A DNA stretch of 35,276 bases from Magnetospirillum fulvum MGU-K5. GTDB taxonomy: Bacteria > Pseudomonadota > Alphaproteobacteria > Rhodospirillales > Magnetospirillaceae. Location: positions 1-35,276 of the forward strand of contig NZ_AQPH01000034.1 of the NCBI RefSeq assembly GCF_000442515.1. The letters run 5' to 3'. Position 1 is the stretch's first letter. Every line of letters starts with the position of its first letter. Of the stretch, positions 1,041 to 17,935 are shown one piece after another. A program made the position numbers and the translations under genes. The notes beneath the pieces are model-generated. The model did not search any database, was not told the origin of the DNA, and saw nothing but the letters and a program-made list of their open reading frames with translations.

Positions 1041-1057
1041 TGGCGGAGGGAGAGGGA
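1041..1057. repeat. Left attachment site (17-bp direct repeat of tRNA-Ser 3' end)
   Basis: TGGCGGAGGGAGAGGGA is identical to the last 17 bases of the tRNA-Ser gene at 15807-15823 (read on the plus strand) and to the copy at 7607-7623. Exact repetition of a tRNA 3' end at the borders of integrase-bearing DNA is the standard mark of tRNA-targeted site-specific integration. This copy is the outer left border of the island. Confidence 0.9.
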
Positions 1058-1102
1058 GCCTCGTGATCAAGGCTGAAACCCCAGCATTACCGCCATTTCC
1101 AG

Positions 1103-1145
1103 CTCGCTGCTCGTGGGCGAACTGTAGCAGGCCACTGTAACAGTG
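1103..1145. promoter_or_regulatory. Element A left-end motif block (probable integrase or regulator binding)
   Basis: CTCGCTGCTC at 1103-1112 is followed by a half-site ACTGTAGCAG and by a perfect palindrome CACTGT-A-ACAGTG at 1133-1145. The same pair, inverted, occurs at the other end just upstream of the integrase start (GAGCAGCGAG 7540-7549; CACTGTAACAGTC 7522-7534). Matching motifs at both ends suggest arm-type integrase or excisionase sites, or a shared repressor operator. It also lies upstream of the gene starting at 1227 and may control it. Confidence 0.5.
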
Positions 1146-1226
1146 TCCATGGCTCTTGCTTATATCCTCTTGGATGGCTGCTTGAGCGATGGTAAACCGG
1201 AGGTGGTGTTTGAGGGGGGCGGAGAC

Positions 1227-2132
1227 ATGAGCGAACGATTCCAGATGCCGAAGCTTTCTGCAAGGAACCCACTGGGAATTATCGCCCTCTTCATCTCATT
1301 GATCTATGCCATGAGCGTCTCGCTCTTGGGCGTCTCCGTTGGAAGCCTTGCTTTCTACAACCAGACCATCCTTGTTGTCTTCGTCGCGCTCTTCCCATTC
1401 GTGGTTCTTTGGGTGTTCTCGTGGCTGGTTGCGAAGCATCACAAAAAACTTTACGGCCCTGGCGATTATCGCTCGGACGAGGGCTTCCTGAACGCGGCGG
1501 ATTCTTCGCCGGCCAGGACGCTTGGGGAGCGTTTAAGTGCCGACATTGATGCGGACGAAAAGGGCAAGGTAACGGATGGCCCGCCATCTGAAACACCGCC
1601 CCCCCATCAGCCTGAATCGACCCTGGCAAGCTCTTTGGACAGGATCTCGCCGCGTGGAACGATTGACGCGCCCTTCGCACGGCGTGAGGATCTGATGGCC
1701 AGGGCCTACATTGCGGAGGGCCTCGTATTCCAGGATTTACAGAATGAGTTCGGTGGTTCAGTCCGGCGAGAAGTTGTGTTCCCCGTAAAAGGTTCCCGTC
1801 CTCTACGGGCGGACGGTGTAATCCATGCAGCCGGCGAAATGATTGTCGTCGAAGTGAAAATGACGCGTTTCGTGGGGAATCTCGTTAGACGACTCCGGGA
1901 GGCGACGAATCAAGTAGAATCCTATCGTCGCGCCATCCAGGAAAGTGGCGTCGTTGGTGCCCGGTTCATAATTGCATTGGTCTTGGATGGGGATGGCATT
2001 TCGGAGGCCGCGCGGCGAATGGTCCAGCGGTATCACGACGGGGTCGGGGGAGACTTGCAGGTGCGCCTATTCTCTTATCAGGCTCTTTTACAGAAGTACG
2101 GCTTTCCGACCGATGAATCCGGCGCGGCGTAG
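1227..2132 (+). CDS. Two-TM protein with C-terminal PD-(D/E)xK-like nuclease motif (defence cargo candidate)
   Basis: 301 aa from the ATG at 1227, which has a GGGGGGCGGAG ribosome site. The same frame is open further upstream, but no start there is as well placed. Two hydrophobic helices lie at about residues 16-40 and 47-70. A low-complexity acidic/proline linker runs to about residue 150. The C-terminal half has a restriction-endonuclease-like core: REVVFP, then RADGVIH with Asp196, then the strand MIVVEVK with Glu209 and Lys211, and a following helix rich in Arg. D-x(n)-E-x-K is the PD-(D/E)xK signature. I infer a membrane-anchored nuclease, an architecture seen in some anti-phage effectors. 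Family membership was not checked. It sits at the far end of element A and converges on the finger-protein gene with a 5-base gap. Confidence 0.7.
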   Translation: MSERFQMPKLSARNPLGIIALFISLIYAMSVSLLGVSVGSLAFYNQTILVVFVALFPFVVLWVFSWLVAKHHKKLYGPGDYRSDEGFLNAADSSPARTLGERLSADIDADEKGKVTDGPPSETPPPHQPESTLASSLDRISPRGTIDAPFARREDLMARAYIAEGLVFQDLQNEFGGSVRREVVFPVKGSRPLRADGVIHAAGEMIVVEVKMTRFVGNLVRRLREATNQVESYRRAIQESGVVGARFIIALVLDGDGISEAARRMVQRYHDGVGGDLQVRLFSYQALLQKYGFPTDESGAA

Positions 2133-2137
2133 GCTCC

Positions 2138-2857
2138 TTAACGATTTTTCAAGTGATGCTCGACCAAGAGCTCCGCTGCACCTTCTAAATCCTCTCCGAC
2201 GTATCGCAGCACACGGCCTCGGCTGCGCGGATACCAGTGCCTTTCCTCGACCACCATCACGGCAGGTCCCGATGTTGCGGGCCGTTCTCGCTCCCATCGC
2301 CTGTGAGTGCCGCTCGCCATGCGGTGAACCAGCTTGGCGGCCTGGACCCGCTTGAACTCGGCGGTGCGGACGGGCTGTGGATCGGCGGCGATGATCATTT
2401 CCACCGCCAGCCATGCAGCGACCACCCGGCGGGGATCGACCTCGGCCTTGCGCAGCCGCGCCCAATGCTTCCAGGCCCGCTCGCGCGGATCGAGGCCGCG
2501 CAGCCGGAACGCCTCGACGTGGGCGCCCGCCTGCTGGTAGAGGGCCTCGACCCTCTGCACGGCGTTTTTGACCCAGTGCAGGTCCGGGTTCGCCTCCAGC
2601 CACTCCAGGGCGGCCCGGCGGTATGGGGTCAGTTCAGCGGCGGTGTATGACCGCTTGAAGGCGCTGCCGTGGCGCTGAAGGTGCTCGGCGTGGGAGCGGC
2701 AGAACCGGGTGTCCAGTCCGTCCGAGGTTCCCGCCCTGGCAGGCTTGCCGCAGCCGATCACCCGGCAGTAGGCATACATATGGTTCGGTTCAGCCGCCCG
2801 TTCGGCGACCTCGCGCTTGCGGCGCCTCCGCCGTTCCCAATCGACCGCCAACTTCAC
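2138..2857 (-). CDS. Cys/His zinc-finger-like protein of the element backbone (A copy)
   Basis: 239 aa from a GTG at 2857 with an AAGCGGGG ribosome-like stretch; an ATG at 2779 is an alternative start, shortening it by 26 residues. Near the N-terminus is CRVIGCGKPARAG, then RFCRSHAEHLQRHG, a CxxxxC...CxxH array ending in RHG. The same pattern (C-x3-GC-x2-PAR ... C-x2-H ... RRHG) opens the protein at 13112 in element B, so the two are distant homologues at equivalent positions. The rest is helical, basic and unrecognised. Such short C/H clusters occur in phage HNH-like and DNA-binding proteins, but no catalytic HNH is visible. It follows the ParB-like gene by 111 bases on the same strand. A DNA-binding or regulatory role is inferred. 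Confidence 0.65.
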   Translation of the reverse strand: MKLAVDWERRRRRKREVAERAAEPNHMYAYCRVIGCGKPARAGTSDGLDTRFCRSHAEHLQRHGSAFKRSYTAAELTPYRRAALEWLEANPDLHWVKNAVQRVEALYQQAGAHVEAFRLRGLDPRERAWKHWARLRKAEVDPRRVVAAWLAVEMIIAADPQPVRTAEFKRVQAAKLVHRMASGTHRRWERERPATSGPAVMVVEERHWYPRSRGRVLRYVGEDLEGAAELLVEHHLKNR

Positions 2858-2871
2858 CCCCGCTTAACAGA

Positions 2872-2970
2872 CGGAAAATCGTTTCACTACAGGCACTTGG
2901 ATGCGGCACTTGCGCCCATGAAGCGTTAAAAGTTAACAGAATGCGGAAATCGCTGCTTTCACAGTCACTT
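2872..2970. repeat. Imperfect direct repeats between ParB-like and finger genes
   Basis: Two related stretches, CGGAAAATCGTTTCACTACAGGCACTT (2872-2898, quoted as CGGAAAATCGTTTCAC plus CACTT) and 2944-2970 (CGGAAATCG...TTTCACAG.CACTT), lie 72 bases apart around an AT-rich patch. They could be operator or ParB-like binding repeats upstream of the finger gene. The match is imperfect, so confidence is low. Confidence 0.3.
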
Positions 2971-3700
2971 AGAACGGGCTCGGGTTGCCCTCGGGATCAC
3001 CGCCACGTTTGACCGCTTCGGCCAGCACCTCCGTGGCGGCCTGGGCGATTTCGTTCAAGGCCTGGGTGCTGGTGACCTTGCCGGCGTTCAGCAAGCGCAG
3101 GGACTGATACAGGGCGCTGATGGCGGCCTGCTGCTCGACCTGGGCGGCGGACAAGGGATCGATGGGACGGCTGCCGCCGCCTTCGGGACGCTCGCCCTTC
3201 TTGGCCTTGTTGCCGAGCAGGCCGGGAAAGTCCTCGTTGGCCCACTTCCAAATGGTCACATGGCTGACGACGTTGTTCATCATGTCGGCGATGGTGCGGC
3301 TGTCCAGGCCCTCCAGCACACCGGACTTCGCCAGCATGCGGAACGAGCGTCGGTACTCGGCAGTCTTCAGCGCCTTGCCATTGGTGGTGTTGGCGAGGGC
3401 TGCGGCCTGCATCGCTTCGCCCATGGTGCCCACGGTGACCGAGGCGGCGATGGTCCGGGTCAGCGCCTTCTTGTGATCGGCCACCGCCTCGGCAGCGGCG
3501 ACACGGTGGAACCCGTCCACCAGGAACAGCCTGCCATCCACCTCGTAGACCTGGACCGGCGGGAACTTGGACCCGGCCCTCATGCTGCGGGCGTACTGCT
3601 CGACGGTCTTGGGATCGACCTCGGTGCGGACCTGGAGGGTTTCTTGGTCGCGGATGATGTCCACGATGTCGAGCTGCTTCACGCTGGCGTTCGCCGTCAT
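2969..3700 (-). CDS. ParB-like nuclease/CTPase-fold protein (element A)
   Basis: 243 aa from the ATG at 3700 with an AGGA ribosome site. An upstream in-frame start at 3748 would overlap the recombinase and is less likely. Residues 1-90 match a ParB/Spo0J N-terminal fold: a basic start, LQVRTEVDPKTVEQYARSM, FPPVQVYEVDGRLFLVDGFHRVAAAEAV. The GFHR box corresponds to the GEHR/GxxR motif of ParB proteins. A helical middle with an HTH-like stretch (SRTIADMMNNVVSHVTIWKW) follows, and then a Gln/Ala-rich tail. In mobile elements such stand-alone ParB-like proteins act in partition, silencing or regulation. No ParA gene is nearby, so classical partition is unlikely. It is paired with the finger gene downstream and the serine recombinase upstream, as in element B. 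Confidence 0.8.
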   Translation of the reverse strand: MTANASVKQLDIVDIIRDQETLQVRTEVDPKTVEQYARSMRAGSKFPPVQVYEVDGRLFLVDGFHRVAAAEAVADHKKALTRTIAASVTVGTMGEAMQAAALANTTNGKALKTAEYRRSFRMLAKSGVLEGLDSRTIADMMNNVVSHVTIWKWANEDFPGLLGNKAKKGERPEGGGSRPIDPLSAAQVEQQAAISALYQSLRLLNAGKVTSTQALNEIAQAATEVLAEAVKRGGDPEGNPSPF

Positions 3701-3744
3701 CCCTGATCCTTCTGGTGCGATTAAACGAAAATGACCACCCCGCA

Positions 3745-4329
3745 TCACGGGGCGCTGACGATGCCGTGAACGGCCCCGACCGACAAGCCCACACGCTCGG
3801 CAATCTTGCGGATGCTCAAGCCCTCGGCCTTGGCCTCCAGCACCGCTTGCCGGGTCGGTTGGGCAACGCCAGGGCGGCCCAGTATCTTGCCCTGTGACCG
3901 GGCACGGGCCAGCCCGGCCTTGACCCGCTCCTGGATCATTGACCGCTCGAACTCGGCGAACACGCCCAGCATCTGAAACATGGCCTTGCCGGCTGGTGTG
4001 GTGGTGTCGATGCCCTGCTGGTGCAGGAACAGGTCAACTCCCAGGACGTGGACCTCGGACAGGAAGGCGACCAAATCCTGGAGGCTGCGGCCCAGCCGAT
4101 CCACCGACCACGCCATGACCACATCGAACTTGCGGCGGGTGGCGTCCTTGGTCAGCCGGTCGAAGGCGGGGCGCTTGTCGCGGCCCTTGGCCCCGGAGAT
4201 ACCGGCGTCCTCGTAGACCTCGACCACCTCCCAGCCCGACCGCTCGGCCACGGCCACCAGTTCCAGGCGTTGGTTCTCGGTGGTCTGTCCGTCCGTCGAG
4301 ACCCGCAGGTAGATCGCGGCCCTACGCAT
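3745..4329 (-). CDS. Serine recombinase, resolvase/invertase type (element A)
   Basis: 194 aa from the ATG at 4329; a TTG at 4359 in the same frame is possible. The ATG was chosen because it overlaps the stop of the preceding small gene (ATGCGTAG), suggesting translational coupling. The catalytic domain shows AIYLRVSTDGQ with nucleophile Ser11, then EDAGISGAKGRDKRPAFDRL, VMAWSVDRLGRS and FAEFERSMIQERVKAGLARAR. The tail GRPGVAQPTRQAVLEAKAEG plus SIRKIAERVGLSVGAVHGI is a Hin/Tn3-type helix-turn-helix. Length fits resolvases and DNA invertases. Likely roles are multimer resolution or a local inversion switch. A 26-base palindrome at 4602-4627 upstream is a possible site. Element B has a counterpart in the same position. 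Confidence 0.9.
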   Translation of the reverse strand: MRRAAIYLRVSTDGQTTENQRLELVAVAERSGWEVVEVYEDAGISGAKGRDKRPAFDRLTKDATRRKFDVVMAWSVDRLGRSLQDLVAFLSEVHVLGVDLFLHQQGIDTTTPAGKAMFQMLGVFAEFERSMIQERVKAGLARARSQGKILGRPGVAQPTRQAVLEAKAEGLSIRKIAERVGLSVGAVHGIVSAP

Positions 4330-4552
4330 CTGGCTGATCTTCTGCGTGACGTCGGACAAGATCAGCCATGGTTTCGAGCTGATCTGCTAGTGCATGCTGA
4401 TCATCGAAGGCTTCAAGCAGAAGCCAGACGGTGTCCCGTACGGCGATCTTCATGACCGCTTCACGGACATATGGATCCACATTCAGCCCCGCGAGATGGG
4501 CTACGAAATCCCGGCAACACTGGTGGACTACCTGATCTAACGCCGTCTGCAT
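4322..4552 (-). CDS. Small protein of unknown function upstream of the serine recombinase
   Basis: 76 aa. The ATG at 4552 has a clear AGAGG ribosome site 7 bases upstream, and the stop overlaps the start of the recombinase by 8 bases, so the two form a coupled pair. The sequence is helical and acidic at the end (MQTALDQVVHQCCRDF ... LADQLETMADLVRRH) with no motif I recognise. It could be a small regulator of the recombinase. Confidence 0.55.
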   Translation of the reverse strand: MQTALDQVVHQCCRDFVAHLAGLNVDPYVREAVMKIAVRDTVWLLLEAFDDQHALADQLETMADLVRRHAEDQPDA

Positions 4553-4601
4553 TGCTACCTCTTGCTATGGCTGTCTATCCATAAGTTCCTACGGCACGAG
4601 C

Positions 4602-4627
4602 GTTCATAAATCAACTGGTTTGTGAAC
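4602..4627. promoter_or_regulatory. 26-bp imperfect palindrome in the divergent intergenic region 4553-4864
   Basis: The half GTTCATAAATCA faces TGGTTTGTGAAC, so 20 of 26 positions are self-complementary. It lies between the small gene/recombinase pair (minus) and the AbiJ-like gene (plus), where an operator or a recombinase crossover site is expected. The rest of the 312-base gap, 4628-4864, shows no convincing gene. Confidence 0.45.
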
Positions 4628-4864: not shown

Positions 4865-5701
4865 ATGCCAGACACTTTGCCCATCGGCCAGCGCTTCAGT
4901 CACGTCTATTTGCGGCGCGGAGTTCCGGCATCTGATAGTGACCGAATGCGCCGCCGCATCGCATCGTTCTTCAATGAATTTGGGTTCTTCAAGACCAGTG
5001 CAGGGCGGAACCTGGAATTGGAGTTGGGCGTTGCCGTTCCAATGGGCTACGAACACCACAACGTCCAAGCCTTTTTACTCAAGTGTGAACTCCGAGATTT
5101 CTTGGATGCCATCACCATCATCTGGCGAAGTGTTCGGATTAGCCATGGGCTAGCGAGAGATGAAGCGGCATGGGTAAAAGTTGTTCGCCGGGTCTTCCAG
5201 GAAGAGAACGCTGGATACCGTGTCGATGACCAGGGCGGCGTTCATTTCGCAGTTGATGGCGAGTTTGACCACAACGTGGCTTCAAGCCTAGCGGCGCTCG
5301 GATCGTCCCGCTACAACGGTGTCCAGGCAGCATTCCAAGCAGCACAGCAGGCATTAGACGAGACGCCACCCAACGGTAAGAACGCAATGCGTTCGGCCTT
5401 CGAAGCGGTCGAAATCCTGTTCCGCCTTATCTTCCCCAAGGCCCCTCGATTGGGATCTGCCGAAATCAGGGCTCATCTTGAGCCGCATGTGCAGGCGCAT
5501 CTCTCGGAGGACAAGACTGCCGCAAGGGCCACCGTCAAGCTGCTCGCCAGCTTCAGCGACTGGGTGGATGGGGTGCACTTCTATCGGCATGGGCAGGGTG
5601 AAGAGGAGCCAACCCAGCCCCCGCTTTCCCTTGCGGTCCTGACCGTCAGCACTGCCGCCTCGTACCTGCGATGGCTGGCAGAGTTCGATGCTGCCCAGTA
5701 G
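4865..5701 (+). CDS. AbiJ-like abortive-infection protein with putative C-terminal HEPN-like domain (defence cargo)
   Basis: 278 aa from the ATG at 4865 after a TAGGA ribosome site. The N-terminal 90 residues (FSHVYLRRGVPASDSDRMRRRI... then a helical segment) resemble the AbiJ N-terminal type of domain. The C-terminal half has the pattern NAMRSAFEAVEILFRLIFP ... LLASFSDWVDGVHFYRHG ... LAVLTVSTAASYLRWL, close to the helical C-terminal domain of AbiJ-type proteins, where a G-x-RHG element precedes a long terminal helix. HEPN-fold RNases cleave tRNA or mRNA during phage infection; the RHG here may be part of such a site. This is motif-level inference only. It occupies the slot between integrase and recombinase on the opposite strand, the same slot taken by a different gene in element B. 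It converges with the integrase. Confidence 0.6.
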   Translation: MPDTLPIGQRFSHVYLRRGVPASDSDRMRRRIASFFNEFGFFKTSAGRNLELELGVAVPMGYEHHNVQAFLLKCELRDFLDAITIIWRSVRISHGLARDEAAWVKVVRRVFQEENAGYRVDDQGGVHFAVDGEFDHNVASSLAALGSSRYNGVQAAFQAAQQALDETPPNGKNAMRSAFEAVEILFRLIFPKAPRLGSAEIRAHLEPHVQAHLSEDKTAARATVKLLASFSDWVDGVHFYRHGQGEEEPTQPPLSLAVLTVSTAASYLRWLAEFDAAQ

Positions 5702-5734
5702 CGCCATGGCGCCCCCTCCCACCGGGGGAGAATG

Positions 5735-7516
5735 TCACTCTGCCGCTTGATCGGATGCCCGCTCACATTTTTGCCCCGGAACATCCGGGCGAAGGTGCCC
5801 CAGGTCCAAGCCCTCGTACCGCAGCCGGGCCATCGCCTCGGCCAGCTTTTTGAGGAAAAAACCCCGGCCATAGCGGCCTGACATGCCCTCTTCGCCGTGG
5901 CCTTGCAGGGCGTCCATGATCTCCTTGGAGATGTCCGAGTTGCGGCAGGCGTCCTCGAAGCTATGACGGAAGCTGTGGAAGGCGTTCTTGCGGTGCTTCA
6001 CCTTCACCGCCTCCAGGAATCGCCGGAAGTGCTTGGAGTATGGTGACGAGTAATAGCCGTCCGCGCCCATCTTCATCTCGGGGAACAGCCGCTGTTCACC
6101 CTGGCGCTTGCGTAGGGCGACATGATCCAGCAGGCCCAGTTGGATCAGGACGGGATGGACCGGCGTGTTGCGCTTGCTGTGGGGAGTTTTAAGGCGCTTG
6201 TCCTCGCCATCGTCGTTGATGTCGAAGAACAGGACGCCGTGTTCCGTTCGCACTTCCTCGACCCGAAGCTGGATGATCTCGCCCGACCGCGCCCCGGTGA
6301 ACAGGCCGATCAGGGGCACCCAGAACATGCCGGTATCTCGAGGGATCAACGAGCCCGGCGAGGTCCATTCCCGGACGGACTTGCAGCCCGTGTAGACCGG
6401 GGCACGGAAGATGGCCTTCAGTTCGTCCAGGGTGAACGGGTCGCGTTCCTCACGGACGTTGCGCCCCTTCATCTTCACCTTGAGGCCCTTGAACGGGTTG
6501 GGCGGGCACTCATCATAGTGATCCGCCGCCCAGGTCCACAGCGATCCGACGTAGCCCAGCAGCTTGTTCAGGTTCTTTTCTGACATCGGGGCCATCGCCA
6601 GTTCCTGCGCCTTGGCGGACGCTTCGGCGATGGTCAGGCCCTTGAGGTCATCGAACTTGTTCCAGTTGGCCGGCAGATGCATCAAGATCGCCTTGAACGC
6701 TCGCGCCTCGGCCTTGCCGTACTCGGTCCACGGCCTGTCCCCGGTGACGGCGATGAAGTGCCCCATCCATACCCGGTGCTCATGCTCGGTCTTGGGAACC
6801 CAGGATGTGCGGGCTTTCTCGGCGATCCACTCCTTGACCAGATGCGACAAGGGCGGGGTGGTAGACACACTGGATCTAACTTCCAGCGGTGCTTTCACTG
6901 TGCTGGGCGGTGGCGTCACAGCCGGTGCCGCCGGGGTCTCCACCGGCTCGCCCTCATTCCTGGCTCTCTTGGCCTTGTAGGCGCGGATGGCGGCGGCCTG
7001 GAGTTCCCGCGCCAGTTTGCGACGGCACGGGGCATCCTCGGCCAGCCGCAGGGCCACGTTGTCCCAGGACAGGACCTCGTCCACCTCGTCTTCGTAGAAG
7101 CTGCTCACTTCGCCACGGGCGAACTGGTGGCGGGTGCCGGTGTCGAAGGCGTCGATGTCCTCAACGTATTCCTCGAACGAGCGGCCCTCGAACGCCTCGT
7201 TGCGGACTTCGTCGTCCTCGTCCAGCAGGGCGGCGTAGTAGACCTCGCCGATGCGCTTGACCTGCTCGTCCGTCAGCGTGTCCAGGGGCGGCTGGGCCTG
7301 TAGCGCCATGCGGCGGCGGTGGTCATCGAACAGACGGTCTACCCGTGCCGCTTCGATGCGGACCAGCTTCAGGGCGTCCCGATGATCCTTGGTGCGGAGG
7401 GAGAAGGTTTCCTCGGTCTTGGGGTACGTGTCCGCGATGTCCACGGGCACGGCGGCCCGGTGCCAGTAAACGGCGCCACGACGATAAAGACGGGGATGTC
7501 CGGGCATCTTCTCCAT
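5735..7516 (-). CDS. Tyrosine recombinase/integrase of element A
   Basis: 593 aa from the ATG at 7516 (GTGGGAG ribosome site). The frame is open upstream through the att site, but those codons are not protein-like. The start, MPGHPRLYRRGAVYWHRAAVP, is the DUF6538-type N-terminal domain common in proteobacterial integrases. A core-binding SAM-like domain lies at about residues 215-340. The catalytic residues are visible: Arg410 (TGARSGEI), Lys443, His514 and Arg517 (HSFRH), His540 (GHG) and Tyr549 (SGRYGRGF). All are intact, so activity is plausible. The gene starts 91 bases from the att repeat at 7607. It should catalyse integration into, and excision from, the tRNA-Ser 3' end. Its long Glu-rich N-terminal region makes it larger than usual phage integrases. 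Confidence 0.95.
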   Translation of the reverse strand: MEKMPGHPRLYRRGAVYWHRAAVPVDIADTYPKTEETFSLRTKDHRDALKLVRIEAARVDRLFDDHRRRMALQAQPPLDTLTDEQVKRIGEVYYAALLDEDDEVRNEAFEGRSFEEYVEDIDAFDTGTRHQFARGEVSSFYEDEVDEVLSWDNVALRLAEDAPCRRKLARELQAAAIRAYKAKRARNEGEPVETPAAPAVTPPPSTVKAPLEVRSSVSTTPPLSHLVKEWIAEKARTSWVPKTEHEHRVWMGHFIAVTGDRPWTEYGKAEARAFKAILMHLPANWNKFDDLKGLTIAEASAKAQELAMAPMSEKNLNKLLGYVGSLWTWAADHYDECPPNPFKGLKVKMKGRNVREERDPFTLDELKAIFRAPVYTGCKSVREWTSPGSLIPRDTGMFWVPLIGLFTGARSGEIIQLRVEEVRTEHGVLFFDINDDGEDKRLKTPHSKRNTPVHPVLIQLGLLDHVALRKRQGEQRLFPEMKMGADGYYSSPYSKHFRRFLEAVKVKHRKNAFHSFRHSFEDACRNSDISKEIMDALQGHGEEGMSGRYGRGFFLKKLAEAMARLRYEGLDLGHLRPDVPGQKCERASDQAAE

Positions 7517-7521
7517 GCTCC

Positions 7522-7549
7522 CACTGTAACAGTCGGCTGGAGCAGCGAG
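7522..7549. promoter_or_regulatory. Element A right-end motif block upstream of its integrase
   Basis: CACTGTAACAGTC (7522-7534) and GAGCAGCGAG (7540-7549) repeat, in inverted orientation, the motif block at 1103-1145. Position immediately before the integrase start suggests either autoregulation or arm-type binding sites at both element ends. Confidence 0.5.
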
Positions 7550-7606
7550 AAGATTTTCTGATTGGTTCCCAAGGACTTGCTGAAACGCCAAGGCCCTAGG
7601 GAAAAG

Positions 7607-7623
7607 TGGCGGAGGGAGAGGGA
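7607..7623. repeat. Internal attachment site at the A/B junction
   Basis: Exact copy of the 17-bp tRNA-Ser 3' end, TGGCGGAGGGAGAGGGA. It separates the two elements and lies in the 204-base gap between the two head-to-head integrase genes. Identity ends immediately after the 17 bases, which delimits the shared core. Confidence 0.9.
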
Positions 7624-7687
7624 CGATCCGACGACATGATCCGTAAGCCGCAGAAGCCTTGATTTCCAACGTGTTCCGCCATCATAT

Positions 7688-7704
7688 GTGTGGGGGAAAC
7701 GTGT
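7688..7704 (+). repeat. Element B end repeat, left copy
   Basis: GTGTGGGGGAAACGTGT is identical to 15723-15739 and followed in both copies by GGGGA (one extra T here). It lies just before the integrase start. Repetition near both att sites suggests arm-type integrase binding sites. Confidence 0.6.
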
Positions 7705-7720
7705 TGGGGAGGCTTTCACC

Positions 7721-9019: not shown

Positions 9020-9081
9020 GTTGAGATTTTCTTCAAATAATGGCAATTGGCGGCTGCTGTGCAAAATCAACGTCTATACCC

Positions 9082-9441
9082 TCACCTGTACCTTTCATTC
9101 GTGTCGAAAGGCAACTTGGGAACATCAAAGCAGGAGATATCCTCAATCTCAAACCTCTTAATCAATTTATGAACAAGAGCGTCAAGTGCGATGTAATCAG
9201 CGTCATTCCCCTCTGTCCTGGTAAATTCAATCCGACGATTGAGGAGCTTTGACCATTCATAGACAAGCTCTGGATTTCTTTTTCTAATGGCACACTCGAA
9301 ACCAAGCGTAAGATAGGTAACTTCGCCATATGCCTCATTCAGAGGTATCGCTGTTGACGCTACAGAAGGAACGGAGACCAGTGAGACAAGTAGCGCAACA
9401 AAGAAGTGCCGCATAGGAAGCTTTTTTGATTGATGACACAT
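9082..9441 (-). CDS. Small exported protein of unknown function
   Basis: 119 aa from the ATG at 9441 (GAG upstream at moderate distance); an internal ATG at 9414 (MRHFFVALLVSLVS) is an equally possible start. The N-terminal region has a typical signal peptide, HFFVALLVSLVSVPSVAS followed by TAIPL. The mature part (about 90 aa) is mixed charged with two Cys (FECAIR, ISCFDV) that may form a disulfide in the periplasm. No family is recognised. Base composition is lower in GC than its neighbours, suggesting separate acquisition. It fills cargo slot 1 of element B, on the opposite strand to the backbone. Confidence 0.6.
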   Translation of the reverse strand: MCHQSKKLPMRHFFVALLVSLVSVPSVASTAIPLNEAYGEVTYLTLGFECAIRKRNPELVYEWSKLLNRRIEFTRTEGNDADYIALDALVHKLIKRFEIEDISCFDVPKLPFDTNERYR

Positions 9442-9698
9442 AAAACATTTCTCGCAAAAATCTGAGCGAGCATCAAGCCCCCAGCTAACACGCGGTTCCC
9501 CCCATGCCGGGGCCTCGCTGCCCCTACAGTTGCCAACTGGGAAGATTGATGGAATGGGGGGGTGCCCAGCTACCCCCAGCCGTTCTCGTTCCTGTCGGCG
9601 CCCTGGTGGCCCTGGCTGGCTGTCCTTCCCAGGGACCAGAGCCGGGCAAGGGGCCTCGTGGTGTCGTGGCAGAGATGGCCCCCAACAGCCCCGGCTTG

Positions 9699-9728
9699 TG
9701 CATTCCTTACGCCGTGCATTCTGCATAG
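9699..9728. repeat. 30-bp repeat, copy 1
   Basis: It begins TGCATTCCTTACGCC and ends GTGCATTCTGCATAG. It matches 13071-13100 with 3 mismatches in 30. On the minus strand it contains two GAATGyA boxes 16 bases apart. Candidate binding site for an element-encoded regulator or the ParB-like protein, or a repeated promoter. Confidence 0.6.
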
Positions 9729-9931
9729 AAGGGGCGACGGGAGACGGGAATTCCGTCGCCATTCGCTACGGTATTCGTCGCGACACGGGCCTTCCTCCCG
9801 CTCGCTGTGGGGCTGTTCGTCGCGTCCAAGCCCGGCCAGCCGGCATGAAGGGGCTGAGGGCGAGCAGCCGTCCGGGAGGTCGATAGCCTCCGGTGGCCCC
9901 TGGGGGAGCGACCAGCCGGGAGCGGTGAAAT

Positions 9932-9951
9932 GGAAACCACGGTTTCCTTTT
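9932..9951 (+). terminator. Terminator-like hairpin followed by TTTT
   Basis: GGAAAC-CACG-GTTTCC (9932-9947) is followed by TTTT (9948-9951). The stem is short (6 bp) but the layout is that of an intrinsic terminator for rightward transcription. No gene ends just upstream, so it may end a non-coding transcript. Confidence 0.4.
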
Positions 9952-10064
9952 GCCTCTCGGTTCCTGGTGGTGTCGCTCGATCCCGTACCGCCTTGACACC
10001 ACCCCGCCAGCCCCATTACATAAACACTCAACGAACGTTGACAGCTTGCGTAACGAGGCAAGCC

Positions 10065-10748
10065 ATGACCGCCTATGTCGAGTACTACCGGGTGTCCACC
10101 GACAAGCAGGGCCGTTCCGGGTTGGGGCTGGAGGGGCAGAAGGAGGCGGTTCGCCGCTTCCTGCGGGATGGGGACACCACCATTCAGCCGCCCTTCGTCG
10201 AGGTTGAAAGCGGCAAGAAGACCGATCAGGACCGCCCCCAGCTTCGCGCCGCCCTGGAGGTCTGCCGCAAGACCGGAGCCACCTTGCTCATTGCCAAGCT
10301 GGACCGGCTGGCCCGCGATGTCGCCTTCATCGCCGCCCTGATGAAGTCCGATGTCCGCTTCGTCGCCTGTGACATGCCCGATGCCGATCCCTTCCGCCTC
10401 CACATCGAAGCTGCCATCGCAGAGGAGGAGGCCCGGAAGATCAGCCAGCGGACCAAGGCAGCCCTCGCCGCAGCCAAGGCGCGGGGCGTCAAGCTGGGGG
10501 GCTATCGGGGCTACGACCTGACCCAGGAACAGCGGGCGGCAGGGGCCGAGAGATCAGCCGCCAGCCGGGCCGCTGAAGCCAGCAAGCGGGCTTCTGCCCT
10601 GTCGCCGATCATCGACGCCATCCGGGCCGAGGGGGTCACCAGCGCCAGCGGCATTGCCCGTGCCCTGAATGATCGAGGCATCCCGACCAGCCGGGGCGGG
10701 AAGTGGCAGGCGGTGCAGGTTCAGCGGTTCCTGGCCCTGGTGGGGTGA
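10065..10748 (+). CDS. Serine recombinase, resolvase type (element B)
   Basis: 227 aa from the ATG at 10065 with GAGG 8-11 bases upstream. The frame is open much further upstream but without a ribosome site. The catalytic domain has [19 protein letters not shown] with Ser11, then [16 protein letters not shown] and [22 protein letters not shown] with [19 protein letters not shown]. The C-terminal part ([30 protein letters not shown]) is a short recombinase-type DNA-binding domain. It is too short to be a large serine integrase; multimer resolution or DNA inversion is more likely. It holds the same place relative to integrase and ParB-like gene as the element A recombinase, but is a different subtype. 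Confidence 0.9.
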
Positions 10749-10946
10749 TACCGGCCGCCCTTTGATCTGATCCATCCTCTGTCGCCAGGGCTGCCGCCCC
10801 GGTCCCCGCTTGGGGCGAGGCCCCAAACCCCCTTCTTTTTTCAAAAAAGGGAGAGGTCTGGAGGCGCCAGCCTCCGGGCGGGTTCGGGCGGCAGCCCGAC
10901 GCGGACCACGGTAAGGAGCCGGGTCATTTCAAAGGGCGGCCGGTAT
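10748..10946. repeat. 18-bp perfect inverted repeats flanking a 163-bp structured segment
   Basis: ATACCGGCCGCCCTTTGA (10748-10765) and its exact reverse complement (10929-10946) enclose GC-rich hairpins and a terminator. No target duplication is obvious next to them. It could be a small non-autonomous insertion (MITE-like), a REP-like element, or a large bidirectional terminator. A second palindrome, GGTATGA-GGCG-TCATACC, overlaps the right arm (10942-10959). Confidence 0.6.
10810..10841 (+). terminator. Intrinsic terminator after the serine recombinase
   Basis: Stem TTGGGGC-GAG-GCCCCAA (10810-10826) is followed by ACCCCCTTC and a T6 run ending at 10841; TTTTTTCAAAAAA then allows a second, overlapping hairpin. 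It lies 62 bases after the recombinase stop. Confidence 0.65.
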
Positions 10947-11162
10947 GAGGCGTCATACCACCCACCAGCCCACCCGGCCCGATGCGTCGCCTATCGTAGG
11001 CATCATGAGGGCGCCGAGGTGCGGCGCTATACCAAACATTATGGGCGCAGCGTTGCATATGTCTTGCGTATTGGTTTTTGCAACAGCGGGGGTGTGGTTT
11101 CGCAACATCCCTCCGCTAAGTCCAAGCTTCATAAAAGAACACACTAGATTTTCTGTCTATAA

Positions 11163-11245
11163 ATGCAGTCACTCTAAAGTGAAGCCGGATTGACTGCATA
11201 AGCAGAGGTCGGCATTCTCCCGCCAGTCAACACGATGTGCGGGAG
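11163..11245 (+). promoter_or_regulatory. Leader with nested hairpins; second hairpin masks the ribosome site of the 11256 gene
   Basis: ATGCAGTCA (11163-11171) pairs with TGACTGCAT (11191-11199) and encloses TCACT/AGTGA. Next, CTCCCGC (11217-11223) pairs with GCGGGAG (11239-11245), whose GGGAG is the only ribosome-site candidate for the ATG at 11256. The rest of the gap from 10947 shows no gene. A translational switch or an operator is possible. Confidence 0.45.
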
Positions 11246-11255
11246 TTTAGATCAA

Positions 11256-11513
11256 ATGCTTTTCAGGATTTGCCTGTTCGCCGTCGAGTATGAGGTGGAG
11301 GTCTCGCGGACTGGTGTCTTTGCCAGACTTGGAGACTTTCTCTCGTTCGACCTGACCTTCCGCCTTCCCGACAATATCCGTCCTGCATGGTTTCTTCGCC
11401 AGGAAGGCCCCCTCTCTGAAGGGAATGCCCTGGTGATCCGTGCCGGGCGCACCCAGGCCGTGTTCGAGCTTGGCCGCTGGCTGGTGCCCGGCCTGAAGCG
11501 TTCGCTCGCCTGA
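11256..11513 (+). CDS. Small protein of unknown function
   Basis: 85 aa from the ATG at 11256 (GGGAG 11 bases upstream); an ATG at 11235 in the same frame lacks a ribosome site. The sequence begins MLFRICLFAVEYEVEVSRTG and is rich in beta-type hydrophobic and aromatic residues (FLSFDLTFRLP, AWFLRQEGP), ending with a basic tail. No motif is recognised. It precedes the 11576 gene by 62 bases and the ParB-like gene further on, so it is probably part of the B backbone operon or an accessory insert. Confidence 0.5.
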   Translation: MLFRICLFAVEYEVEVSRTGVFARLGDFLSFDLTFRLPDNIRPAWFLRQEGPLSEGNALVIRAGRTQAVFELGRWLVPGLKRSLA

Positions 11514-11575
11514 ACCTGACGTGGGCGGATAGCCCGCTCACACCACCACAAACATACCCATCAAAGGAAACCGAC

Positions 11576-11965
11576 ATGAGCAACCACACCGATCTTCCTG
11601 CCGCCGCTTTCATCAACATTCCGACCGTCACCAAGGCGCATGAGGCTTTCGAAGTCGCCTATATTCTTGAAGCATATGGAAAGGTTTCTGCCGCCATCCG
11701 GCATCTTTCCGTCAGCTTGCACGTAGACGATGAAGATGAAAGACGGGAGCATATTCTGATGGATTTGCTTCTGAACCTGTCGTTCATCACTGATGATGAA
11801 GAGCATATGAACAGCCTGCTGTCTCTGATCCCCACCATGATTACGAATGCCACCAGTGACAACGCAACGGCGGCGCTCGACTGCATTCGGGATCGTGTCT
11901 TCGATCTGATGGTAGCCTCCGAGAGGCTGCAAGCCGCTTTCCAGGTTCCGCCCGTCAAAGCCTGA
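11576..11965 (+). CDS. Helical protein of unknown function
   Basis: 129 aa from the ATG at 11576, with a clear AAAGGA ribosome site 9 bases upstream. It is acidic and predicted helical throughout (THEAFEVAYILEAYGKVSAAI-type segments, DDEDERREHILMDLLLNLSFI). No known domain is recognised. It is co-directional with the recombinase and ParB-like genes of element B and has no counterpart in element A. Confidence 0.6.
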   Translation: MSNHTDLPAAAFINIPTVTKAHEAFEVAYILEAYGKVSAAIRHLSVSLHVDDEDERREHILMDLLLNLSFITDDEEHMNSLLSLIPTMITNATSDNATAALDCIRDRVFDLMVASERLQAAFQVPPVKA

Positions 11966-12076
11966 TCCCGACCAGCCGTACCCGCCACCCACGCTACGGT
12001 TCGCCCTGGCGGGGGCCTCTCCCAGAACCCTTCCTGACAGACCCGGAATGGGCGGGAACCGGGAGGATTTCACACA

Positions 12077-12148
12077 ATGAATATGTTGTTTGTGTCTGTC
12101 CCTCGGAGGACGGGTACGGCATTCGGCAGCACCTCAACACCACCCTAA
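12077..12148 (+). CDS. Possible 23-aa leader peptide upstream of the ParB-like gene
   Basis: A short frame, MNMLFVSVPRRTGTAFGSTS ending PP, has a strong GGGAGGA site 9 bases before its ATG, better than many genes nearby. It ends 46 bases before the ParB-like start. It could be a translated leader or chance. Confidence 0.25.
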   Translation: MNMLFVSVPRRTGTAFGSTSTPP

Positions 12149-12194
12149 GCGGGGCCTTAGCGCCCCCACATTCCACGTCAAAGGAACCCAGAAC

Positions 12195-13034
12195 ATGAAC
12201 ATCATGAACGACGAGCAGATGCCACCCGAAGGAGAGGCCATTGCCTCCTTCGAGCCGGTCAGCCTGCTTGCGGACCTCAAAGCCCGCACCACCACCACCC
12301 CGCCCCCGGATGGGCTTCCCGATCACCTCCCGCTGTCGGCTATCAGCCTCATGCCCGACCTGTTCCAGCCTCGGGGGATGGCAGAGAACCACATCAGCGA
12401 GTTGACCAGGGTGGTGAAGTCGGGGCGTGTTCTCGACCCCGTGACCGTGGTTCAGGTCGGGGCGGATACCATCCTGATCGACGGGCACCACCGCTTCGAG
12501 GCGTACCGGCTGGCGGGGCTCGTCACCCTGGTTCCGGTCCAGTACTTCGCCGGTACCGTGGATGAAGCCGTTCTGGAAGCTGGCAAGGCCAACAGCCGCG
12601 CCAAGCTCTCGATGTCGGTGCAGGAACGCATGGACTACGCATGGCGGCTTGTCCGCATGGGGTGTTTCTCCAAGGCGAAGATCGCTGACGCGGCCGTGGT
12701 CTCCGATGGGCAGGTTGCCGAGATGCGCCGGGTGATGAAGGTGCTTGGCGATGAAGCCTTCGACTGTGATGTCTGGCTGGAGGCAAGGAAATTGGCGGAC
12801 GGTAAGGCGGGCATGATGCCCACCGATGAGGAGATCGAGCAGCGCCTTGAGCTTCAAGCCGCCATCTATGCTGATCGGATGGCCAAGGTGTTCAGTACCA
12901 AGTTGGCCACTAATCCCGCCCTCGCTGCCAGGGCTTTCGATATGTACTTCGGCAGGAAGCTGCCTGATCTGGCTGAGCACCTGAGGGAATACCTGCCCGA
13001 TGTCGAGGGCGAGGATGCCGATGACGATTACTGA
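12195..13034 (+). CDS. ParB-like protein (element B)
   Basis: 279 aa from the ATG at 12195 with AAGGAA upstream. The N-terminal part after a Pro/Thr-rich linker contains LSAISLMPDLFQPRGMAENHISELTRVVKSG, DPVTVVQVGADTILIDGHHRFEAYRLAG and IPVQYF-like strands. This is the ParB N-terminal fold with a GHHR box. A helical region with an HTH-like segment (MGCFSKAKIADAAVVSDGQVAEMRRVM) follows, and an acidic tail ends EDADDDY. It has no ParA partner in the window. It precedes the finger-protein gene, as in element A, so the pair seems functionally tied. The 30-bp repeat in the following gap (13071-13100) is a candidate binding site. Sequence similarity to the A copy is limited to the ParB fold. Confidence 0.8.
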   Translation: MNIMNDEQMPPEGEAIASFEPVSLLADLKARTTTTPPPDGLPDHLPLSAISLMPDLFQPRGMAENHISELTRVVKSGRVLDPVTVVQVGADTILIDGHHRFEAYRLAGLVTLVPVQYFAGTVDEAVLEAGKANSRAKLSMSVQERMDYAWRLVRMGCFSKAKIADAAVVSDGQVAEMRRVMKVLGDEAFDCDVWLEARKLADGKAGMMPTDEEIEQRLELQAAIYADRMAKVFSTKLATNPALAARAFDMYFGRKLPDLAEHLREYLPDVEGEDADDDY

Positions 13035-13070
13035 GCAGCCCCCTCGAAGGCTGCCATCGGGGGCACCTCA

Positions 13071-13100
13071 TGCATTCCTTAGGCGGTACATTCTGCATAG
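13071..13100. repeat. 30-bp repeat, copy 2
   Basis: Matches 9699-9728 at 27 of 30 positions. It lies between the ParB-like stop and the finger-protein start, 11 bases before the latter, so it could carry a promoter or an operator for that gene. Confidence 0.6.
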
Positions 13101-13111
13101 GCGGGCCGATC

Positions 13112-13804
13112 ATGGCTGACCTCTTCAACCACGGGGGCCGGTCTTGCTCTGTGCCCGGCTGCACCGCCCCGGCCAGGAACGATCATTCCCACCTCTGCGA
13201 GGCTCACCGCCAGCGACAGCGCCGACATGGGCACGTCCGACAGCGGGGGATCACCAAGGCCCTGTTGCGCCCCTACGTCGCCAGGGTGCGGGGGATCATC
13301 GACAAGGACACCACCGGCCAGCTTGCCGCCGCTCTGCACCAGCTTCACGCCCTGCTGGGGGATCGTGCCCGCCAGTCGGTCGCCGACGCCCTCAGCGGCA
13401 GGCCGGGCAGCAAGTGGGAGAGGATCGCCGGGCAGGAGGTGGCGAAGGTGGTCGAGGCCACCAACGCCCTTGATTGCGCCGCCCTGGTCGCCGGGCTGTT
13501 CCTGCTGCGGGACGAGGAACCGGGGCAGTTCGTCAGCGAGGACGGCTTCCGGTTCCAGCTTGCCCGGCTGTTCCGCGCCCAGACGGACCTCGCCTTTGGC
13601 AGCTACTGGGATCAGGAGGCGGGCAAGACCAAGACGGTCTATCGCGACCTGTCCCCCCGTGCCACCGCCGCCCTTGCCCGGTGGGTGGTCGATGCCTACG
13701 CCCGCTTCGTCGGCCATGTCGTCGCCTGGGATCGGCAGGAACGCACCCGACAGGCCGAAGCCCTGGAAGCCCTCGACGCAGCCTTCGCGGCGATGAAGCC
13801 GTGA
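13112..13804 (+). CDS. Cys/His zinc-finger-like protein of the element backbone (B copy)
   Basis: 230 aa from the ATG at 13112; the ribosome site is weak (GGCGGG). The N-terminus CSVPGCTAPARNDHSHLCEAHRQRQRRHG is a C-x4-C...C-x2-H cluster like that of the protein at 2138-2857, with the same GC-x2-PAR and RRHG marks. The rest is helical and Ala/Arg/Gln rich, with no catalytic motif recognised. Homology of the two finger proteins, each directly after a ParB-like gene, is the clearest sign that the elements share a backbone. DNA binding is inferred. Confidence 0.7.
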   Translation: MADLFNHGGRSCSVPGCTAPARNDHSHLCEAHRQRQRRHGHVRQRGITKALLRPYVARVRGIIDKDTTGQLAAALHQLHALLGDRARQSVADALSGRPGSKWERIAGQEVAKVVEATNALDCAALVAGLFLLRDEEPGQFVSEDGFRFQLARLFRAQTDLAFGSYWDQEAGKTKTVYRDLSPRATAALARWVVDAYARFVGHVVAWDRQERTRQAEALEALDAAFAAMKP

Positions 13805-13839
13805 CCCCCCATCCCATCCATCGAGAACAAAGACACGAC

Positions 13840-14310
13840 ATGAACGACATCATCACCACCCACCCCACCGGACTTCCCGACGTGATCGAGGAGGGAGGAG
13901 AGGTCCGGGTTCTCGACCTGACCCTTGCCGAGAAGCTGGGGTTCGAGCGGCCCCGGAAGGTACGAGACCTTATCAAGCGCCACCGGGACGCCCTCGAAGG
14001 GATCGGGAGTTTGCCCCATCGTGGGGCGAACCCTGGGCCGAAGGGTGGTCGCCCCGGAACGGCTTTCTATCTGAACGAGGCCCAAGCCCACTTCATCACC
14101 GCCAAGGCAGGCACCAAGCTCGCCGACATCGAGCTTGCCCGTGTCGCCCAGGTCTTCACCGAATACCGCCGGGGGAACCTGATCGCCAAGGATGCTGAGA
14201 CCCAGGCCACCCTTGACGAGATCGAGGCGAAGAGACAGCGGGCACATGCCTTCTACCTGGAGGAACGGGAGGCCCGCGATACGGCCCTTCGCTTCCTCCG
14301 TCGTCGCTGA
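13840..14310 (+). CDS. Antirepressor/BRO-like regulatory protein
   Basis: 156 aa from the ATG at 13840, 35 bases after the finger gene. The central part VRVLDLTLAEKLGFERPRKVRDLIKRH, then GPKGGRPGTAFYLNEAQAHFITAKAGT and VAQVFTEYRRG, resembles the N-terminal DNA-binding domain of phage antirepressor and BRO/KilA-associated proteins (LGF-x-RPR-x-IR-x-LI; YYLNE-x-QA). The C-terminal part is a charged helix. Such proteins relieve repression of prophage genes, which suits control of induction of the element or response to a helper phage. No equivalent gene is seen in element A. Confidence 0.7.
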   Translation: MNDIITTHPTGLPDVIEEGGEVRVLDLTLAEKLGFERPRKVRDLIKRHRDALEGIGSLPHRGANPGPKGGRPGTAFYLNEAQAHFITAKAGTKLADIELARVAQVFTEYRRGNLIAKDAETQATLDEIEAKRQRAHAFYLEEREARDTALRFLRRR

Positions 14311-14326
14311 TGCCATGACCATGTTG

Positions 14327-14355
14327 CCCCCGCTGGATCGCGCCTCTAGCGGGGG
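14327..14355. terminator. Hairpin between the antirepressor-like and TIR genes
   Basis: CCCCCGCT (14327-14334) pairs perfectly with AGCGGGGG (14348-14355), 17 bases after the antirepressor stop. No T-run follows, so it may be a weak or Rho-aided terminator. Confidence 0.4.
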
Positions 14356-14388
14356 CTGAGGTGGGACGGATAGGCAGGGCGTGCAGAG

Positions 14389-14402
14389 TGGCGGAGAAGA
14401 GA
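14389..14402. repeat. Degenerate attachment-site-like sequence
   Basis: TGGCGGAGAAGAGA resembles the start of the 17-bp att core (TGGCGGAGGGAGAG). It is followed by TTGATCAGGC, similar to GTGATCAAGGC downstream of the att copy at 1041. It may be the scar of an older insertion, setting off 14389-15806 with the TIR gene as a separate segment. Confidence 0.4.
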
Positions 14403-14481
14403 ATTTCTTGATCAGGCTTTCACATTTGGCAGCGCACTTTTCTGCATACTGAAGGCCCAGCAGAATAAAAATGCCACCAGA

Positions 14482-15624
14482 TCAGAAGGGTATCAAATCC
14501 TCATCAGTCTCAAATAACTGTGAGATCTTGCGACCCTCTACCCTGAATTTCTTGCCCGTGGCTCGTTCGAGAAAGTGCCGCAATCTTTCGTACTTGCTGG
14601 TGAGATATACAGCATTATGAAGCTGATCATTGCCTCGGAAACCCTCGATGATTTGCCGGAGTTCATCATCCGAGAGGCGGCCCACAACACCCGCCATACG
14701 GTCGAACCTATTCTTCGCCTCGGTGAAATCGGGGGCTGCTACAAAGGCCGTTAAGAGCGCCCCCTGAAGCCGCTCCCTGTTTCCAAGCCTTTCCGCAAGG
14801 ACCTTGTAGACTTCCGCAGCAGTGTAATCGGGGTCACTGAGACGCCCCTTCACGGCCTGGACATCGCCGATAAACCCCTTGGGGTCTTCGGTTGCCATTT
14901 TCAGCGAAATGACGGGCACGTTCCGCCCAAGGGCGTAGCCAACCTCCTGGTTGGTCCAGATGCTGTCGTGAAAGCCTTCGGTTAGGAATGCGACCATCAC
15001 CTCCATCGTCTCCAACCCTTTCAATATCTCACTCCGCCAAGTGGTCATGGGCTGGATGGTATCGTGGGCTACGAACGAGGAAATGCCGTAGTTGGCCAAA
15101 GCCTCCCCCAGCGTCTTGGCCTCCGCCTTGTGGATGTCCCTGTGGCTGATGAAGAGCCGGATTTGGCCGGGTTGCCAGATCGCGAGAGAGTTTGGGTCAA
15201 TGTTCGGACGCCCCCCGAGCGGCACAGCCTGACGGGCCTCAGGGTCTGTCTCATCATCCCCCTCAATCGTAACGGCTCTGAAGTGCTCGTTTGGATAGGA
15301 TTGCGAGCACGCGTTCAGGTCCTCGCACAATTTCTCGCATAGTGTTTGTTGCTCTCGCACCCTGATCTTTCCTAGGACCCGCTCGGGTAGGAATATCCTT
15401 ACATCGTGCCCGTAGGTCCCACCGTTCCAGTTGTCGTAATCGGTTCCTGGAACCACGAGGATGCGGCTGAAATCGATGATTTCAACCAACAGCGAATTTC
15501 CCTCCTCATCATACTCGGTGCGAAGTCGGCGAAGAAAGGCATGGGTCTTCGGAGGGAGGGCGAAGGTGGTCAAGTTGGCACCTAGAGTTAGTGGCACTCG
15601 AGATGTTACAGCCAACTCGCGCAT
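14482..15624 (-). CDS. TIR-domain protein with unrecognised N-terminal domain (defence cargo)
   Basis: 380 aa from the ATG at 15624 (a TTG two codons upstream is also possible; no clear ribosome site). Residues 155-255 form a TIR domain: IRLFISHRDIHKAEAKTLGEALANYG, then SFVAHDTIQPMTTWRSEILKGLE, VMVAFLTEGFHDSIWTNQEVGYAL and VPVISLKMATEDPKGFIG. Glu227 in the TNQEVGYAL helix fits the catalytic Glu of NADase TIR domains. Residues 20-135 (KTHAFLRRLRTEYDEEGNSL, VRIFLPERVLGKIRVREQQT) are an extra domain I do not recognise. The C-terminal 120 residues are helical. Bacterial TIR proteins deplete NAD or make cyclic ADP-ribose signals on phage infection. The GC content looks lower than in the flanks. 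It occupies cargo slot 2 of element B, next to the tRNA. Confidence 0.85.
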   Translation of the reverse strand: MRELAVTSRVPLTLGANLTTFALPPKTHAFLRRLRTEYDEEGNSLLVEIIDFSRILVVPGTDYDNWNGGTYGHDVRIFLPERVLGKIRVREQQTLCEKLCEDLNACSQSYPNEHFRAVTIEGDDETDPEARQAVPLGGRPNIDPNSLAIWQPGQIRLFISHRDIHKAEAKTLGEALANYGISSFVAHDTIQPMTTWRSEILKGLETMEVMVAFLTEGFHDSIWTNQEVGYALGRNVPVISLKMATEDPKGFIGDVQAVKGRLSDPDYTAAEVYKVLAERLGNRERLQGALLTAFVAAPDFTEAKNRFDRMAGVVGRLSDDELRQIIEGFRGNDQLHNAVYLTSKYERLRHFLERATGKKFRVEGRKISQLFETDEDLIPF

Positions 15625-15722
15625 ACGCAAAGACGGCCACTCAAGACCGCAACAGCTATCTGGCCTTCTCGATTGAATGGGGCGTCATCAGGACGCCGTA
15701 ATCATGGCTGACGAGAAAAGTC

Positions 15723-15739
15723 GTGTGGGGGAAACGTGT
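15723..15739 (+). repeat. Element B end repeat, right copy
   Basis: GTGTGGGGGAAACGTGT, identical to 7688-7704 and in the same orientation, 84 bases before the tRNA att core. The remaining bases from 15625 to 15806 show no gene; they probably hold the promoter of the TIR gene (reading left) and integrase binding sites. Confidence 0.6.
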
Positions 15740-15806
15740 GGGGATCGGCTGAATGAGCTTCGGCTAACGGCTTGAAATCGTTGATATTTCTAGGCTGTAG
15801 AGAAGC

Positions 15807-15823
15807 TGGCGGAGGGAGAGGGA
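15807..15823. repeat. Right attachment site inside the tRNA-Ser 3' end
   Basis: TGGCGGAGGGAGAGGGA forms the CCA end, acceptor strand and part of the T arm of the intact tRNA-Ser. It is the reference copy for the repeats at 1041 and 7607, and the last one on the chromosome side. Confidence 0.9.
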
Positions 15824-17907: not shown

Positions 17908-17935
17908 CCGCTTCGGCCACATATAACCGGACATC

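Follow-up and report, generated by a model that had tools for sequence, protein, structure and literature searches.

Two probable mini integrative elements in tandem at a tRNA-Ser gene of Magnetospirillum fulvum and an apparently new family with a finger-resolvase backbone

What do three identical short repeats mark beside a tRNA-Ser gene of Magnetospirillum fulvum MGU-K5: a single island, or separate small elements that share an insertion site, and of what kind? The question was addressed in a stretch of 35,276 nucleotides (contig NZ_AQPH01000034.1 of assembly GCF_000442515.1, forward strand; hereafter the window), of which positions 1041-15823 are at issue. The reading that we favor, at a probability of roughly 0.7, is that this region holds two separate mini integrative elements, A and B, which belong to one family and lie in tandem at one tRNA-Ser attachment (att) site. 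These are most likely members of a new family of integrative elements that depend on a helper; the hallmark of the family is a Cys/His-finger protein (hereafter the finger protein) encoded together with a small serine recombinase (resolvase) and a tyrosine integrase.

The 17-bp sequence TGGCGGAGGGAGAGGGA is present in the window at 1041-1057, 7607-7623 and 15807-15823, exactly and in one orientation throughout (plus strand); an exact search of the opposite strand of the window gave no copy. Three copies of such a 17-mer within 35 kb are not due to chance. The copy at 15807-15823 is the 3' end of the target gene, a tRNA-Ser(GGA) placed by ARAGORN at 15807-15899 on the minus strand, the copy at 1041-1057 matches this 3' end exactly at the distal end of A, and the copy at 7607-7623, also exact, is shared at the A/B boundary. 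As the earlier sequence-only reading had claimed, the three copies delimit two units, A of 6,566 bp and B of 8,200 bp. The two integrase genes diverge from the middle copy and begin ca. 90-100 bp off, one on each side. These repeats show that the elements integrated, with tRNA-Ser as their target; no tmRNA was found in the window by ARAGORN.

Read from its integrase, each element displays the same order: integrase, a gene on the opposite strand, resolvase, ParB-like gene, finger gene, and a further opposite-strand gene at the far att copy. The core genes of A lie on the minus strand and encode the integrase (5735-7516; PF20172, E 6e-16; PF00589, E 2e-6), the resolvase (3745-4329; PF00239, E 4e-47; 88% to the resolvase of L013, a locus in a relative), the A-type ParB-like protein (2969-3700; phrog_1033, E 9e-17; no Pfam match) and the finger protein (2138-2857; no Pfam match; homologues in genomes G175 and G091 are 76% and 74% identical). 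Those of B, on the plus strand, encode the integrase (7721-9019; PF00589, E 2e-12; PF20172, E 9e-9; 72% to the L012 integrase), the resolvase (10065-10748; PF00239, E 2e-25), the B-type ParB-like protein (12195-13034) and the finger protein (13112-13804, the start being at 13070, 13112 or 13151), which has sub-threshold matches to PF19698 (E 0.0095) and to phrog_4160 (E 0.003; unknown function). The mirror-image order described before was thus found as stated, but four open reading frames (ORFs) had been left out of it: 4322-4552 in A (minus strand; no match in Pfam or PHROG) and, on the plus strand of B, 11256-11513 (a weak homologue in L041, 30% over 73 amino acids), 11576-11965 (no match in Pfam or PHROG) and 13840-14310 (an element-associated frame with relatives in L017, L042 and L089 at 56%, 65% and 58% identity).

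Library scans of A and B genes against Pfam, PHROG, PADLOC and NCBIfam, the choice of libraries differing from gene to gene, gave no match to structural, packaging or transfer families among the scanned genes, in agreement with the previous claim that none are visible. This holds for terminase, portal and capsid, for relaxase or mating-pair genes (Pfam or NCBIfam), for alpA and primase (Pfam or PHROG) and for a ParA-type ATPase (Pfam, PHROG).

The core proteins of A and B are distant homologues. The integrases are 26% identical over 270 amino acids (E 6e-13), the finger proteins 38% over 55 (E 1e-5) and the ParB-like proteins 27% over 73 (E 2e-4), and the resolvases reach E 0.09; the search set behind these values was just 16 proteins, and in the same comparison a pair that is evidently spurious reached 0.002. 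The pairing is supported by the families that A and B have in common, namely PF00239 in both resolvases, phrog_1033 in both ParB-like proteins, and PF20172 with PF00589 in both integrases. As the proteins are related yet far apart, the common gene order is old, and the view that it represents a conserved architecture and not a recent duplication was borne out. The mirror image itself would have arisen without inversion, each of two integrase types docking its element at the one site in an orientation opposite to the other's: the integrase gene adjoins the tRNA in A and L013, and is the gene farthest from it in B, L012, L090 and L091.

To what extent does this set of genes recur elsewhere? The finger protein had no Pfam match above cut-off, no NCBIfam match and no significant match to a named family or fold. 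It was found in 7 of 150 genomes of the order and 8 of 55 of the family, and with the A-form as query in at least 11 of 248 genomes of the order (part of the candidates scored), the genome of M. fulvum MGU-K5 being included in each count. It is also encoded on contigs of Pelomonas (a member of the Betaproteobacteria), Roseospirillum, Magnetospirillum and Paramagnetospirillum, and in 3 of 72,556 plasmid records, these being large plasmids of Microvirga, Neorhizobium and Phyllobacterium. None of 50,697 phage records contained it, and a search of viral contigs yielded one locus, L092. Twenty-nine finger loci were scanned with profiles (A, B, L011-L018, L022, L024, L092, L041-L047, L059-L065, L123 and L124; the Phyllobacterium match lies outside this set), with gene calls made by an in-house script. 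The loci were chosen by the finger gene, which makes the finger matches circular, but neither integrase nor resolvase entered into the choice; some of the co-occurrence profiles were built from the same loci. A resolvase was present at 23 of the 29 loci and a tyrosine integrase at 22, with short or split versions of the latter in L060 and L061; in L044 a large serine recombinase takes its place. The gene in the middle varied: it was ParB-like at 11 loci, encoded a 430-amino-acid protein at five, was helicase-like at four, and was DUF3102-like alone at two. Finger and resolvase are the steadier pair, and ParB is one choice among several for the middle position. The sequence-only reading had staked its proposal on recurrence of a four-gene backbone in other genomes; the trio of finger, resolvase and integrase does recur, often with a ParB-like gene, which is present at 11 of the 29 loci, A and B included.

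As controls we scanned 17 tRNA-Ser loci in 16 further genomes of the genus, one of which contributed two loci, and observed resolvase-profile matches at six and integrase matches at two. One of the six, L090, is itself a relative; at the 17-bp site known from the window it combines a B-type integrase and a resolvase with an A-type ParB, and it gave no finger match.

Of the 29 finger loci, 13 have a finger gene that is not obviously cut and are bounded by exact repeats of 16 bp or more, at a spacing of 4.4-14.5 kb. In the relatives these repeats lie at tRNA-Ser GCT (L012, 5,969 bp), tRNA-Ser CGA (L059, 13,546 bp), tRNA-Phe (L014, 11,852 bp, and L063, 7,057 bp), tRNA-Ala (L024, 9,374 bp), tRNA-Gly (L042, 7,804 bp, with a repeat of at least 40 bp, and L046, 9,882 bp), tRNA-Leu (L124, 14,540 bp), tRNA-Thr (L062, 4,429 bp, the repeat being mid-tRNA), guaA (L041, 9,700 bp) and another gene end (L045, 9,246 bp). 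Exact repeats of this length also flank L064 (2,282 bp) and L065 (7,034 bp), which contain finger fragments. Weaker ends were seen in L060 (14 bp), L015 (13 bp, at glnA), L013 (imperfect) and L011 (imperfect, 71-75% over ca. 130 bp). Two further loci interrupt genes, as indicated by profiles that continue across the insertion: comM in L044 (Mg-chelatase profile positions 1-27, then 27-206) and radC in L017 (RadC profile positions 1-75, then 69-120). The 17-bp site of the window is reused by L090 (7,637 bp, with a B-type integrase at 53%) and by L091, a remnant of 1,512 bp. Small elements at tRNA-Ser had been proposed; small and recurrent they are, but tRNA-Ser is one site of many, next to several other tRNAs, guaA and one other gene end, and the proposed size of 6-9 kb has to give way to the 4.4-14.5 kb spanned by the 13 repeat-bounded members.

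Comparison of relatives revealed abrupt boundaries of similarity within the backbone. The finger gene of L022 with its short leader is 95.6% identical to that of L014 over 722 bp between flanks that match at random; in L022 1944-2663, 17-20 of every 20 bases match, as against 3-9 of 20 outside. One copy of this near-identical gene adjoins ParB-B and the other ParB-A. Similarly, L012 and L013, both from one genome, are 87% identical over 1,605 bp comprising finger, ParB and the start of a TGCA-rich motif, with different integrases and resolvases. L013 combines an A-type integrase (74%) and an A-type resolvase (88%) with a ParB 55% identical to that of B and a finger of the B clade. Judged by these alignments, backbone genes have been exchanged as sharp-edged cassettes.

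The predicted model of the B-type ParB-like protein (pLDDT 76) has a ParB N-terminal fold and a helix-turn-helix, and matches structures of plasmid KorB and chromosomal ParB and Noc (best E 2e-6); its match to PF02195 (E 2e-4) is below cut-off. A TGCA-rich motif is located 3' of the stop codon of this gene at all seven loci that possess it (the window, L012, L013, L015 and L092, plus L022 and L044, where the motif is degenerate and was read by eye). A pattern derived from these same loci gave 7 matches in 490 kb, two of them overlapping in L013, and none in 40 first-order Markov shuffles. We infer that the motif is the predicted binding site of the B-type protein; in B the candidate site lies at 13072-13099 (plus strand), 37 bp 3' of the ParB stop. 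B has a further copy at 9700-9727 (plus strand), 5' of the resolvase gene, while in relatives the motif is found only 3' of ParB. The flanks of the A-type ParB gene contained no copy of it, only other short palindromes, and ParB-B was encountered in none of the 72,556 plasmid records.

How might such an element persist? The integrase would insert and excise it, and the resolvase would hold the excised circle monomeric. The ParB/KorB-like protein may load at the TGCA motif and either regulate its own operon or stabilize the circle without a ParA of its own, and the finger protein would act as a DNA-binding regulator of the backbone. As the element has no transfer genes, a helper would be needed; given one, it would probably be a phage, a conjugative element being the more doubtful candidate. 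Cargo that protects the host, anti-phage in several members, would aid persistence. More tentatively, A and B may represent a distinct class of mini-elements, in which a ParB/KorB clamp that loads at its own adjacent site without ParA forms, together with a resolvase and a finger protein whose fold is possibly new, a portable module for maintenance and regulation, swapped as cassettes onto varied integrases and defense cargo.

Several observations weigh against our interpretation. The similarity of the A and B finger proteins lies mostly within the N-terminal finger. The family is rare outside the order, with finger matches in at least 2 of 385 genomes of the class and at least 4 of 398 of the phylum (own genome included, part of the candidates scored). 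Seven of the 29 loci have none of the four middle genes, and six lack a resolvase: L016, L064 and L065, in which the finger is cut or partial, L043, which is a contig of 4.2 kb, and L060 and L061. Some of the loci without resolvase or middle gene are fragments or contig ends. The resolvase matches at six of the 17 control loci mean that a serine recombinase near this hot spot is not rare. Finally, no excised circle, two-flank empty site, helper or transfer was observed.

Among the other explanations, a narrower form of the one we favor holds that the elements are phage satellites, excised after infection by a helper and packaged in its particles; we place this somewhat short of an even chance. 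Their size and missing transfer genes resemble those of minimal satellites, a KilA-N domain is encoded in L024 and a Cro/C1-type helix-turn-helix in L013, and in a viral contig (L092, 551-17115) a block of resolvase, finger, ParB and integrase genes adjoins primase, terminase, portal and head genes, with no tail gene among nine L092 proteins scanned. This join may, however, be between two tandem elements; the scanned A and B genes gave no primase or AlpA match, and the finger search yielded that one locus in viral contigs and none in phages. L092 is also the sole possible case seen of family genes inside one phage or integrative and conjugative element (ICE), which bears on the idea that A and B are what decay has left of larger prophages or ICEs. 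Fragments do exist (L016, L064, L065 and L091), but A and B have open reading frames and att pairs, and small size at unrelated sites and in unrelated hosts, together with recent cassette swaps, makes decay improbable.

It is less improbable, though still unlikely, that A and B are mobilizable elements without a relaxase (iOriT), carried along by a conjugative plasmid or an ICE. The plasmid-style resolvase and the KorB/ParB-like genes would fit, as would the report that SGI1 hijacks the parABS of its helper plasmid (PMC10954446); against this, no relaxase matched in the scanned genes and ParB-B is missing from all 72,556 plasmid records. The least credible of the alternatives is a single composite island with an inner att copy. 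The three copies are identical, and the outer pair could move the whole; yet L012, L013 and L090 are single elements whose B-like and A-like integrases are oriented as in the window, and the contention that A and B are two separate elements is upheld by them.

Like PICMI (phage-inducible chromosomal minimalist islands; PMC10803314), A and B are very small, possess an integrase (PF00589 in both), show no capsid-remodelling genes and would depend on a helper. The PICMI search model requires int, alpA and primase, and its prototype lies beside fis in Vibrio; the scanned A and B genes, in contrast, have no alpA or primase match, and resolvase, ParB-like and finger genes are present instead. I55-type islands (PMC12595487) share with them a tyrosine integrase, direct repeats, defense genes and the absence of transfer genes. 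These islands are moved by a jumbo phage, have a core of alpA, RadC and YqaJ and range from below 20 to above 70 kb; their target is tmRNA and not tRNA-Ser, and ParB, resolvase and zinc finger are mentioned nowhere in the main text of that article. SGI1-type mobilizable elements (PMC10954446) are likewise integrative, helper-dependent (as A and B would be) and linked to partition, but SGI1 reportedly relies on the parABS of its helper, whereas here the element has a ParB-like gene of its own with an adjacent motif. From ParABS systems B differs in that no ParA matched among the scanned genes and in that the motif lies just 3' of the ParB gene. Hitcher genetic elements (PMC11389934) also need a helper, as A and B presumably do, and the transfer of many islands is obscure; hitcher is, however, a concept and not a gene family, and its main text has no mention of resolvase or ParB.

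Small islands with an integrase and defense genes and without transfer genes have thus been published already (PMC12595487, PMC10803314, PMC11389934). A family with a finger-resolvase-ParB backbone was not recognized in the literature searched, which suggests that this family is a new form of that known concept. Many small islands without transfer genes carry defense systems, and the movement of most is unexplained. With its searchable hallmark, its precise ends, two examples side by side in one strain and a candidate pair of ParB and TGCA motif, this family allows direct tests of excision, stability and helper dependence; in addition, the backbone itself displays gene-sized cassette swaps with sharp ends.

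The remaining genes of A and B are cargo. Those of A, on the plus strand, encode a protein with two transmembrane stretches and a nuclease-like C-terminus, both read by eye (1149-2132; phrog_26238 of unknown function, E 3e-7; Pfam, PADLOC and NCBIfam searches without match), and an AbiJ-like protein (4865-5701; PF18863, E 0.001, below cut-off; PADLOC PDC-S32, E 1.5e-6). Those of B, on the minus strand, encode a short exported protein with a signal-like N-terminus by eye (9082-9414; no match in Pfam, PHROG or PADLOC) and a TIR-domain protein (14482-15573; PF13676, E 2.5e-12; ThsB, E 3e-5; Thoeris ThcB4, E 1e-10, below cut-off; no PDB sequence match). Defense-type cargo was recognized at 7 of the 29 loci in a partial scan that, apart from the window, took in selected proteins of nine loci. 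It included type I restriction genes in L011, L014 and L059; L011 also has a GmrSD-like gene, and L059 has Abi_C-like and PIN genes with weak matches. L045 encodes a type IIG enzyme, and L015 a cytosine methylase without recognized partner. The tally of defense genes leaves aside a CoiA-like nuclease in L044 and the HsdM-like genes of L047 and L062. In L014 and L045 the restriction genes lie between resolvase and finger. Cargo is found on both sides of the resolvase (towards the integrase and towards the finger) and also beyond the finger, which makes more than two places; the suggestion that defense genes are swapped at two fixed slots keeps its swapping but loses its two slots, and the defense label applies to the seven loci above.

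A conserved leader hairpin lies directly 5' of the finger start codon, among other places at L022 1928-2002, L012 9781-9855 and L044 10134-10217. It is common to the seven loci used for its model, and L044 matches the model independently (E 6e-7); other sources gave no match better than E 0.25, and covariation is slight, a single one of 11 pairs showing a change in both partners. In B a partial, weak match to it occurs at 12090-12119 on the plus strand (20.8 bits, E 0.054).

In L018, at ca. 10000-10760, a finger-like frame contains an in-frame TGA. Besides those of A and B, M. fulvum MGU-K5 possesses a third finger gene, near glnA; the third family element there (genome G000, contig C17; L011 ca. 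6829-20677, L011 and L097 taken together) is located after glnA and carries type I restriction genes and a GmrSD-like gene.

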